A stretch of DNA of 64,000 nucleotides, taken from Amphibalanus amphitrite (Eukaryota; Arthropoda; Thecostraca; Balanomorpha; Balanidae). The position numbers were made by a program, and so were the translations under genes. The DNA is taken from assembly GCF_019059575.1 (NCBI RefSeq), contig NW_024882301.1, positions 270,822 through 334,821 of the forward strand. The letters are read 5' to 3'. This document shows, piece by piece, positions 3,964 through 56,219 of the stretch. How positions within the stretch are numbered: position 1 is the stretch's first letter; each line of letters opens with the position of its first letter. The notes beneath the pieces were generated by a model. That model searched no databases and was not told the DNA's origin. It worked only from the letters and a program-made list of their open reading frames with translations.

Positions 3964-3967
3964 TTAA

Positions 3968-4842
3968 CCCTATTAGTGGCAGGGGGGGTTGTTTTTATCC
4001 ACCCCTCAGGTTTTTCGGGAATATCTCCGAAACCGCTGAAGCTACGATGCTGAAATTTTCTGACTTTTCCTAAAACTAAATTGGGCACATTCCCTGAAAA
4101 TTTCAAGTTCATAACTTTACCAGGGGCGGCTCCAGAGCACTGGGAATTGGGGGTCCTATTCGTGAAGCGAGTCATTTGGGCGAAGATCACGATGCTGCAC
4201 CAGTTTTACGAACAGTGAATGAAAGGTATCATGTGATAACATATACAAAGTTATTGTGCATCCTCTTTTGACACGTTTTTGTTATAATAGGCGGATCCAG
4301 GCGTCCAAAAAGGGGGGTTATTTTTTACCTCCCAACATAGGTGCCCTGACACCGCCTATGCATGACCAATACAATTTTAGTCGTTCTTTCATAAGAAAAT
4401 TGTAACATAACAAGACCATTGCCACCCTTTTTAGAAACAGTACCAACAAAAACCTTATTTACTATACTTTTTGTGTACCCCCAATCTCAATGATCTGTAT
4501 CCGCCTATGATTTTTGAAAATGCATATTTTTAGGATCCATGTGAATTCCTGGTTCATTCTCTATCGATCGGCAAAAGTTGCGTTAAGATTGGTTCAGAAA
4601 CCTGGCCGTGATAATCAGTCTAAAATGTATCTGCAATTTGCCCGTTTTTACCCCCCTCTACCCCCCTATTGACATTTTTGAATTTTTTTTTTTTTAGAAA
4701 TGTAGATCTCGTTGAGCCAAATCGAATGCCGTTTGAATTTTGAAAATCGGCCGGTTAGATCTCGAGATATCAAGGGGGGGTCGTAAACAACCCCCCCCCT
4801 GCCACTAATATGGGGTAGCCAGGAGCCTGCCACTAAGTAGGG
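3968..4842 (+). mobile_element. piggyBac-like TTAA element, family A copy 1
   Basis: The element lies between TTAA copies at 3964-3967 and 4843-4846. It starts CCCTATTAGTGGCAGGGGGG and ends with the inverse motif. The right end carries the terminal motif twice: one copy around 4800-4813, then a spacer reading GTAGCCAGGAGCC, then the outer copy at about 4828-4842. C- and G-tracts lie just inside both ends. TTAA duplication, CCC-starting ends and asymmetric end repeats are traits of piggyBac elements. No transposase frame is visible, so it is non-autonomous. A second copy lies at 23806-24719. Confidence 0.8.
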
Positions 4843-4846
4843 TTAA

Positions 4847-7347
4847 GAAGTCGGATGTGACCACACCACACCAATATAGGTACCTATGTTCTAAAGGTTG
4901 TCGTGCCACATTTGTGAATAATACACGTATATGAGTACCAGCATAATAATAATAATAATGCCTAAATACGAGCATTCACTAAAATTGATCATTATATCCC
5001 AATGCAGCATCTTTGTCACAATTCCACAACGGTTTTGACTCGCTGGCTCGCTGGCTCGAGGGTCCGGTGTTCCTCTTCTCACATCGCCCGTCGCCCGTCT
5101 CACCGCGAAGCTCGCCACTCTACCACGCTCCAACAGTAGCCAATTCTGGCACCCCGAGCCGCGCCTTCACTGGCGTGTGATGGCCGGGAGGGCGACAGCA
5201 GCCGATCGGCTGCAGTGCACACAGTCTCCGAAATATATGGGCAGTACGGCGACGGCCGGCGGCCGGAGAGCAAGCCGAGCCAAGTCGCCGTTAGTCTGGC
5301 TGGGTCTGAGTCCTGAGAGTCCCGACCGTCGGCCGACGAGACGGCCAGTGACGGGAACGGCACGGATGGGGTGGCATCGCACGGTCCCTGCCAACCGGCG
5401 ACCCGCATTTGAATTTCATCAGGCCCTCCCCGACACCGACAAGCGGTAATTTCATCCAGATGCCGCAGCCGGCACTCCTCGTGGCTTAGGCTGCGATACT
5501 GCTGTGGAAAACCGCCGTTGATAATTGAAATACGTATATATGAAACATTTTGTAAAAATGTGCATTGCTCATTGCTCAGCCAGAGGACTAAGCTGATTCC
5601 GATGAAAGTTACTTAAATTTAATGTAATTACTCCTAACTTCTAAACATTATCTAGTGCAGTCGTGAGCCGCCAAACTGATGTCAGATGCGGCGATGCCCT
5701 TACCGATTTCTGATACGGGGAAATTCTGGATTACAAAATGTTTCTACCTCCTTCAAGTGTACTTCACGTGAATGTTAACGCACACATCAGCTTGTAACGG
5801 TTTAATCTAGCTTGCTTTGATCCCCGTTCGTCATTAATAATTGATAATTATGCTGTCAGATTGGGCGAATTCGAGGGTGGAGTGGCGTATTTTGAGCTGC
5901 CGTGTCCTCAGGACAGATAACATCCCGTTATGAAATAATCTAACAGGGTAAGTAGCTTAGTATGCACTATGCAGGTTACCATGCATTGTATTGTAGGTAC
6001 ACGTACTTACATATGAACATAGTCGTATGATATCTTTGACTTCGCGAACAATGAGGGTTTGATACGCCAGATGTCGGCATGGATGTTTGTCGGCGCTGGC
6101 GAGATGAGGCTCACTTCATGCCGGCCCAACCAGCCCAATAATTGGTGCCTTTCCGCGCTCCTAGTTTGTTGCCAGATTTACTGCATTACGAAGCAGTAGG
6201 GCGTCAACCTGCGATTTTTCGCCTCGTTAGGGAGCCTCAACCGAGCAATAGCTTTCCACTCGGTGAATTCTAGACGAACTGCTGGCAAGTTTCGCCATAA
6301 TAATTTATCAGCGCGTTGACTCGTCTTTAATATTCCTTCAGGTTCTGGTTTATTATGTATCGGATCGTTTGGTTTGATACTGTGGTTCTGAGGCCGTGGT
6401 AGCGGAATGGGGCGCTTCTGCGACTACGCTGCGAGATGGGCGGCATAATTCGGCCATAAATGGTTTGATTGGAACGCTAAGCTGTTTAGGAAGCGAGCAT
6501 TGCACAGCGATTCCCTGCAAACATCACCCCACCTGCCATCAGAAGTCGGCTCTCAGTCGTTCAGTCGAACTCGCTGAATTAGCAATGGCTCTGTAAGCTC
6601 ATTTTCCAGCGGCACTATAACGTAATGAGATAAAAGAAATAGAGCATCAGCGCGCAGCGTCGCTGCGGACCACTTCGCATCGTGTTCCTCCGCGAAAGAA
6701 GCTCTGCTGAATTTTTAAAGTACTCACGGTGACAATGACAGAGGGTCGCCCGAGCCGGCGAATGGACGAGATTAAACGCCAGTAGGGGCGGAGAATGGGA
6801 GAGGTTAATGGCCACCGCCTCGATGGCACGGAAACCACGCGCGCCGCAGCGCCGAGCCGGTCAGCCGGCGAAGGAGGGCGATGGTGCAGTGGTTTCGGCC
6901 GCTGACCCCCGAAAACAGATAGCCCTGCCGGTGACCCCTCTAAGGACAAACGGCGCTGAAACTCGCGCTTTCGAGGACCCAGCGTCAGTGGGGCTAGCCG
7001 GTGATCTTCAGAGGATCCTGGATAAGATGCTAATTGAAATAAAGTGATTGTAAATACGAAAATGTTCTGAGTAGGTAATATCGTCTGATTGGAGTGGGTG
7101 TTTTTGGACATGACCATTGAAAACCGTTCCTTCCGTATCACAAGTGCTTAAATACTTTTGGCTGCAGTGCTCTTAATTTTTAGGCGAAGAACTTTTACAC
7201 AATTCATAACAAACCATTAATCAAGGCCATATATAGTAACCAAATGTCGAAATTGCTTTTACTTAGTCTGACTAGTAATCCTTTTCAAATGACAACTTAT
7301 GGCCTGCCTTCCGTGGTACTATCGATCACCCCTTGGGAACATCTCAG
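4847..7347. other. Intergenic or intronic DNA, no gene recognised
   Basis: Contains a short ATA run near 4944-4959, a GC-rich patch at about 5030-5410, and otherwise unremarkable AT-leaning sequence. Small open frames at 5100-5449 and 6647-7141 overlap each other on both strands and show no family motif, so I do not call them genes. Confidence 0.5.
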
Positions 7348-54201: not shown

Positions 54202-55059
54202 GAACTGTTTTTGAAGACACGTAAAGAAATGAAATGACCAAATGCCGTTGACAGCTGATTGTACCGACCAATTGCTACCAGTTAGCTGTTTTTATAGTCA
54301 TTTTTGTACAGAAAACACAAACTGAAATCTGTCTCGCGGCTACCCTCTTCGGCTCTTTCCTGTCTCCTACATTGTAGGCAAGTAGGAAGGTTTGTGCACC
54401 TCTGAGTGTAACATAAAATATGATATTACGTCGAAGTGGTAGGAAATGCAAACGTTTAATTCAAGCAGGTCCAGTTCTCTTTTAAACGAAAGAAGCAAAA
54501 TAAAGTTAAGTTGAATTCATTTGCTGCATTCATGCTAGGAAAATAATGACTATCTACGGATCCTTACATGTAGTTAGAACGTTGCTGCTCAACCAAAGGG
54601 CAGATGCTATCGACCGGCAAGCCCCATTCAAAGCAAGCGAGTCGTAAAGGCAACCTTTGGCTAACGTTCAAGAAAATAGGCTGGACTAAATGTTCTTTGA
54701 TTCGGTGAACAATGGAAAATCCTGCGAGTGCGGTGGAATAATGGCAGGCTCTGCTGTCGTCTACCGTGTCTTCTGCTAGCAGACCTTACCAGTTACCATC
54801 CCTGTCTCCACGGTGTGTCCGTTTCTGACCGCAATGGCGTTACGGCCACACAGCGTGCTGGCTATATGACCTGTATCGATAAATATAAAATATATATATT
54901 GGATAGATCACGACATAAAAGATAAATTGTAAATATTAATGTGCGAGGACTGAGGAGCCGGAGCCAGAGCCGACACTCTTTTCCCGGAGCCGGAGACGCC
55001 AGAGCTGAAGTCGAAATCGTTCAAATAGGTACTGTACACCTCCACATACAAAACTGCAT
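54202..55059. other. Intergenic DNA, no gene recognised
   Basis: AT-leaning, with short frames only. A GGAGCCGGAGCC-type short repeat lies at about 54952-55002. Confidence 0.5.
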
Positions 55060-55063
55060 TTAA

Positions 55064-56215
55064 CCCGCTCCCCGTTGGGCTCTGCCGAGCAACTCGCCCG
55101 GTTGGGGGGGGGGTATTTTGCCCCCCCCTAAGATCTCGAGAACCACGCAACATAGCGACAAGCGGTAAACGGCGTTGGATAGCCCCAACGGGGAACTACC
55201 TTGTGACCCAATTTTATTGACCTAGGTCAAACCGATGACGTCACAGGTCAGGTCAAAGGTCCAATTTTCACCGTTTACAGGCATTTCAAGAAATGCGTTG
55301 TAAAATCGAGTAAAATGCATTTCATTGAAAATCATCGATGTGGAAATGTTCTTCAAACACATATTTTTCTATTTGAGGTCACTGATACCAGGTCAGGTCA
55401 CAGAGGTCAGGTCACGGGGGGGGGGGTCACAATATGAAAGTGTCGTGTGATGTGATACATGTTTTATGGTCCATTTTACATGACAAATGCGATTATGTGG
55501 GTCAGGCAGCCTTTGGGGCCAGCTTAGGTCACGTTTTGGTCAAGGTCAGGTCAAGGTCAGGACAAATTAGGTCAAATTTCAAAGTTGATATTTTTGCATA
55601 AAATGGGTATCGAATCGATGCAGCTCGTCACATGGAGTTCAATGGTGATCTTTGTTTTGCCGTACGTGGTCTAGAATCGCTAAAAATTAAGTTCAAAAAT
55701 TTGACGTCATCATTTTTGAACAGTTTTTTCGCTATAACTTGGCCAAAAAACGAGATATCGATCTGAAATTTGGTATGTATATAGAAGAGCGCTGGGACTA
55801 TCACATATATTCTGTTTTTTCGAAATTCGGAAAATTTTTGGATTTTTTTTCTAGTTTTTCTAAAAAAAATCAAGGTCAAAAACCAAAAATTTTGAAAATC
55901 CGAGATAGCAGTTTTGTAGCGCCGCTTTTTGTCCACTAGACCATATAAAGAACTTTAAAATTGCTTGTTAACTGTAGATTTGGTGAGCGTTTCAAGATTG
56001 CATGTTTTTTGCTCATTTTTGCTCGAACATGACCTCAGTTTGACCTCAATAACTCCTGACCTAAGGTGACCTAAGACTTGAAATTTGGTGTGAAGGTGTC
56101 AAATTGATGCCCGGGAAGGTGCTGAAAATTTGGCGGCGCTGTGCGCCGCCGTTTTCTTGCTATTCAGGAAAAACCATAGGGGGGGCAAAATGCCCCCCCC
56201 CCAACGGGGCGAGGG
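55064..56215 (-). mobile_element. piggyBac-like TTAA element, family B copy 3 (inverted)
   Basis: Flanked by TTAA at 55060-55063 and 56216-56219. Inverse orientation of the copies at 33994 and 43093, so the doubled end (CCCGTTGGG, spacer with GGCTCTGCCGAGCAAC, then CGCCCGGTTGGGG) is on the left and the single end CCAACGGGGCGAGGG on the right. It has G/C-tract hairpins at both ends and many AGGTCA motifs inside. Confidence 0.87.
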
Positions 56216-56219
56216 TTAA

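Follow-up and report, generated by a model that had tools for sequence, protein, structure and literature searches.

The piggyBac transposon of T. ni has internal repeats that differ between its two ends. According to the accessible text of PMC7351741, bp 34-63 of the right end (RE) are nearly identical to bp 7-35 of the left end (LE), and Chen et al. termed this right-end insertion and duplication puzzling. For Amphibalanus amphitrite, a table row of PMC10813416 gives intact piggyBac elements of 2708-4732 bp encoding 506-645 aa; that survey left out MITEs by design, and its main text contains no instance of the string "asymmetr".

Here we analyze a stretch of 64,000 nucleotides from A. amphitrite (contig NW_024882301.1; hereafter the window) together with other loci of the same genome. 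An initial annotation of the window had pointed out that asymmetric internal end repeats are known in piggyBac, and the T. ni right end, as set out in the available part of PMC7351741, bears this out. The doubled ends that we describe follow this known T. ni right-end plan and do not represent a novel mechanism. The apparent novelty lies in the scale across families and in the concerted change of motifs. The listings and passages searched in the literature gave no account of many families with co-changing doubled ends.

Six TTAA-bounded elements in the window

The initial annotation had reported six TTAA-bounded elements of three families, A, B and C, and all of them are present. Each carries a motif (M) that is single at one end and doubled at the other (6 of 6 elements), as had been claimed:

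3964..4846, + strand: family A MITE, copy 1, TTAA to TTAA, with its single end at 3968-3980
~4800-4813 and ~4828-4842, + strand: inner and outer motif at the doubled end of the 3964 copy
23802..24723, + strand: family A MITE, copy 2, with its single end at 23806-23818
24643-24655 and 24707-24719, + strand: inner and outer motif, 64 bp apart, at the doubled end of the 23802 copy
27846..29043, - strand: family C MITE within the 144-bp satellite, with its single end at 29026-29035
27854-27863 and 27881-27890, - strand: outer and inner motif at the doubled end of family C, on the low side
33990..35176, + strand: family B MITE, copy 1, with its single end at 34000-34010, inner motif at 35131-35141 and outer motif at 35158-35168
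43089..44271, + strand: family B MITE, copy 2, with its single end at 43097-43107, a drifted inner motif at 44226 and the outer motif at 44253-44263
55060..56219, - strand: family B MITE, copy 3, reversed, with its doubled end at ~55067-55105 (inner copy drifted) and single end at 56201-56211

TTAA stands at the outer edges on both sides in all six elements; the left flank of the B copy at 33990 reads TTAAAACCC, with two extra A. The ends were said to start with CCC, which is true of most; the single end of C begins CCT, the other checked ends CCC, and both forms agree with the CCY rule for short TIRs. A spacer of 12-16 bp between the doubled motifs had also been described; it fails in the A copy at 23802, which is off-phase, with extra letters in the spacer. 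The offset between the starts of the two motif copies is 27 bp in C (27854/27881), as it is in all three B copies (35131/35158, 44226/44253 and the copy at 55060), and about 28 bp in the A copy at 3964, where an indel is present. Drift of the inner motif, from CCCGTT to CCGGTT, is seen in two of the three B elements.

Empty sites demonstrate TTAA target-site duplication for two families. Family C interrupts the 144-bp satellite, and its empty 44-bp site, with a single TTAA, occurs in the window 16 times exactly on one strand and 14 times on the other; since this site is present in other satellite units, the insertion of C cannot be put down to chance. An element of a further family, F, is nested in an A copy (L050), and both window A copies carry the F empty site with one mismatch.

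A palindrome formed by a G-run and a C-run stands where T. ni has the palindrome of the cysteine-rich domain (CRD). Between M and the palindrome core the G-run is 6 to 15 nt long, in contrast to the fixed geometry of T. ni, and the self-complement ratio of the cores ranges from 0.35 to 1.0, with several cores hardly palindromic. With G-runs this variable and some cores this weakly palindromic, it is uncertain whether the palindromes are CRD sites as these are understood for T. ni.

Several other repeats lie in the window. The 144-bp satellite array into which C is inserted extends over 26089-33368 and flips orientation near 30837-30875. An ORF of a non-LTR retrotransposon (endonuclease and reverse transcriptase) at 8630-11476 is followed by a TTAGG array at 11817-11883; on either side of the two stand arrays of 16-bp units that run in opposite directions (~7997-8322 and 11895-12079). 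Tandem 76-bp units (18.7 copies) occupy 47176-48589.

Two end types and concerted motif change

Genome-wide searches covered the 807.55-Mb assembly; we give forward-strand counts, because reverse counts are inflated by single sites matching at several lengths. A long-spacing pattern (TTAACCC-N30-50-G8-N4-14-C7) has 15,347 forward matches and a short-spacing pattern (TTAACCC-N5-18-G8-N4-14-C7) has 11,256, while the same patterns read backwards have 0 matches genome-wide. The patterns set the spacing and not the repeat, which was judged on the listed matches (100 rows, ~87 distinct sites). Sixty distinct ends were collected from the window and the fetched loci by one rule, with the doubled end of the 23802 A copy beyond its limit and uncounted; the distance from TTAA to the G-run is 13-14 nt in 29 of these ends and 39-47 nt in 31 (40 or 41 in 27 of the 31).

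The two end types occur together. Among the matches listed for contig C1 to 537 kb there are 24 long- and 18 short-spacing ends, and the 13 pairs among them all join a short to a long end (like-kind pairs, 0). The asymmetry seen in the window also prevails among the family A copies of contigs C1-C5: 39 of the 41 copies paired there, with 15 ends left unpaired, have exactly one exact single end, none has two, and two have none. One A pair on contig C15 (1021271-1022146) departs from this pattern: by exact 23-mer both of its ends appear to be of the single form, and the second motif may have been lost.

To compare motifs, 27 families were hand-picked from the listed long-spacing matches and the fetched loci, with the CCCGGCT form of E and the CACACT form of f11 dropped as variants. 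The best internal copy of the motif M1 lies at a shift of 27 for 14 families, at 26 for six, and at 25 or 28 for two each; D, K and f17 have equal or better copies at other shifts, and 24 of the 27 families thus fall at 25-28. Pooled over families, the identity of M1 to M2 reaches 0.617 at shift 27, whereas every other shift from 20 to 31 gives 0.25-0.37. In what we take to be the T. ni end letters, the right-end repeat agrees at 10 of 10 positions at a computed shift of 27, and LE bp 7-35 fits the right end best at 28 (22/29).

The initial annotation had held that the motif differs between families and is the same at both ends within a family, and this is confirmed by computation over families and elements. 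Across the 27 families, the 7-nt motifs at the outer and inner right-end sites are identical at 124 of 189 positions; in 100,000 shuffles of partners the mean was 60.9 and the highest value 90. In 17 complete elements, one per family with further members left out, left and inner motifs agree at 93/102 positions, left and outer at 90/102, and outer and inner at 85/102 (shuffled means 41-43, maxima 66-67). The palindrome cores of the two ends agree as well in these 17 elements (0.87, against a shuffled 0.54 with a maximum of 0.73). Motifs therefore change in concert within elements, far beyond shuffled partners. The contrast is sharpest between families B and D, which show differences at 53 of 666 positions of the terminal interior compared, at 2 of 20 in the spacer and, over the three motif copies, at 8 of 21 (Fisher p 0.0002); the T/A difference is identical in 3/3 copies. 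Some families, such as C and f7, have a common M, and a family is therefore not defined by M alone.

Full-length parents and their transposases

Classification of the six elements as piggyBac-related MITEs, proposed from the window, is now direct for B and C, whose parents encode piggyBac transposases, and for A is by end architecture only. The parent of C is a 4732-bp element in the same genome (L059 1088-5819) with an intact 645-aa ORF (P0001), and the C MITE is a two-piece deletion derivative of it, with a junction near 28532. The C parent matches the exact upper limits of the intact-element row in PMC10813416 (4732 bp, 645 aa). The parent of B, also in the same genome, is a 6-kb element with an intact 673-aa ORF, and a third family, Z, combines a transposase with the same single/doubled end plan. 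Relative to the transposase gene, the single end is on the 5' side and the doubled end on the 3' side.

All three proteins (C, B and Z) have a match to the Pfam domain DDE_Tnp_1_7, and the catalytic DDD (D295, D379, D478) is invariant and aligns to T. ni for C and Z. C and Z were used as search queries; both are much closer to T. ni piggyBac than to piggyBat, with a match that extends through the cysteine-rich domain. In a tree of 20 rows (18 transposase clusters of this genome, T. ni piggyBac and piggyBat), B, C, Z, L036 and T. ni piggyBac form one clade with support 100/99. Within this clade ends were seen for three of the four clusters from this genome (B, C and Z); for the 14 clusters outside it, both ends were seen for seven, one end for one (L038) and no end pair for six. 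None of the seven has a doubled end, and among 16 ends from eight loci of this kind the +27 repeat always stays below 7/8 matches. Ends were accepted if they recurred with the same transposase inside or matched a MITE interior; L065, a single copy, is weaker. Intact transposases with known ends number only three.

Autonomous DDD piggyBac relatives with matching ends were thus found for C and B, and a parent of A was not found among the transposase loci L009-L067. Long A elements (L050, L051) were considered as carriers of autonomous copies and rejected: their extra length consists of other MITEs and unrelated DNA, with no reading frame above 92 aa. Doubled ends adjoining transposases were not accepted as such, since several of them, at L022, L028, L029, L031 and L046, are parts of neighboring MITEs. 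An AlphaFold model of the C parent (four sequences) was discarded at a mean pLDDT of 50.

Further features of these loci were recorded. In all three copies of the C parent family, the transposase ORF is preceded on its upstream side by a perfect tandem duplication of 188 bp (L057 2029-2403, reverse complement; L058 2200-2574; L059 2176-2550). Internal segments of C recur at 67-81% identity between other ends, as if families exchange interiors; such segments lie in the joined C702 stretch (8019-8169) and in the window at 23733-23803 and 44942-45277. In four loci neighboring elements meet at a single common TTAA (L040 3571-3574, L050 92-95, L066 6824-6827 and L054 1215-1218); the pair in L054 consists of a 948-bp derivative of Z and a full-length Z copy.

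Origin of the ends and comparison with described systems

The six elements are best explained as nonautonomous deletion derivatives (MITEs) of T. ni-type piggyBac that keep both ends, and we regard this explanation as a whole as highly probable. On the 5' side of the lost transposase gene, the left end consists of TTAA, CCC with the ~10-bp M, and then the G-run/C-run palindrome (P). The right end, on the 3' side, consists of TTAA, CCC with M, a short spacer, a second M about 27 bp inward (exactly 27 in C and B) and P. By analogy with T. ni structures, the transposase core (DDBD) would contact M, paired cysteine-rich domains would contact the palindrome, an outer catalytic dimer would join both tips, and a second dimer would sit on the inner M and P of the right end. 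The MITEs were presumably moved in trans. A shift in transposase specificity would then require M to change at all three places together, and this would keep families apart.

A wider proposal is that dozens of piggyBac families share one geometry, and that the concerted changes of M and core mark mutually orthogonal transposase-end pairs with a readable core-domain code. We advance it tentatively and put its chances slightly under even. The "modular recognition code" of the initial annotation stands as motif co-change within elements; that the transposase reads the difference is what we infer. With piggyBac identity unchanged, the agreement of the three copies could instead come from gene conversion, or from a founder end that drifts slowly, and not from a code read by the transposase. 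The co-change is statistical only, the three intact transposases with known ends are too few for a correlation of protein with motif, inner copies have drifted in two of the three window B elements, outer copies have drifted in f10 and in a variant of E, and C and f7 have M in common, all of which weigh against a code. Homogenization accounts poorly, however, for the B and D comparison, where the motifs differ at 8/21 positions against 53/666 in the interior and 2/20 in the spacer, with the same T/A in three copies; conversion that links the left end with the inner copy on the right could spread M but would probably not by itself reach the outer copy. We therefore judge this alternative unlikely, though it deserves to be taken seriously.

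Two other explanations concern the elements themselves. The MITEs could derive from another TTAA-duplicating superfamily, Kolobok or Sola3, and resemble piggyBac only superficially, since TTAA duplication cannot on its own tell these superfamilies apart. The B and C parents, however, encode piggyBac transposases between identical ends, which refutes this origin for B and C and makes it very improbable overall. Slippage or misassembly at homopolymers might be invoked for the single/doubled pattern and the G-runs, whose length does differ between copies. Both motifs nevertheless lie outside the G-run, the offset stays at 25-28 bp in 24/27 families despite unrelated spacers, and the 15,347 long- and 11,256 short-spacing forward matches face 0 backwards; the chance of such an artefact is negligible.

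Under the preferred derivation from T. ni-type piggyBac, the same arrangement, at nearly the same offset, is found in family after family with diverged motifs. This recurrence despite divergence argues that the phased second site is required and not accidental, and it fits a tetramer. If each transposase reads its own motif only, the genome is a panel of orthogonal piggyBac systems, and, if so, alignment of transposases with motifs could yield rules of end recognition. The genome is in this sense a natural test set for how piggyBac recognizes its own ends.

Like the coral CMITEs, the present elements form several piggyBac-related MITE families in one genome, with ends that differ more than interiors (PMC2872659); a doubled end is not described in the available part of that paper. 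They share with piggyBat of Myotis lucifugus the piggyBac superfamily and core motif repeats that are each followed by a palindrome (available text of PMC11707139). According to the same text, piggyBat differs in having three left-end repeats at 44-bp intervals, a right end without such a palindrome and another CRD fold; in our tree it falls, on a long branch, outside the clade of B, C, Z and T. ni. The closest likeness is to T. ni piggyBac (LE35/RE63): TTAA, a CCC tip, a left end with one core-bound repeat and then a palindrome, and, at the 3' (right) end alone, a second copy of the repeat about 27 bp further in, together with a transposase of the same clade and an alignable CRD. The transposases in this comparison are mutually just 37-41% identical. 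What we take to be the 19-bp CRD palindrome sequence of T. ni is absent here, is not taken to define the clade, and has in its place a G-run/C-run palindrome with runs of variable length. The present ends also differ from T. ni piggyBac in their motif sequences and in forming many families, with over 15,000 long-spacing ends counted on a single strand.
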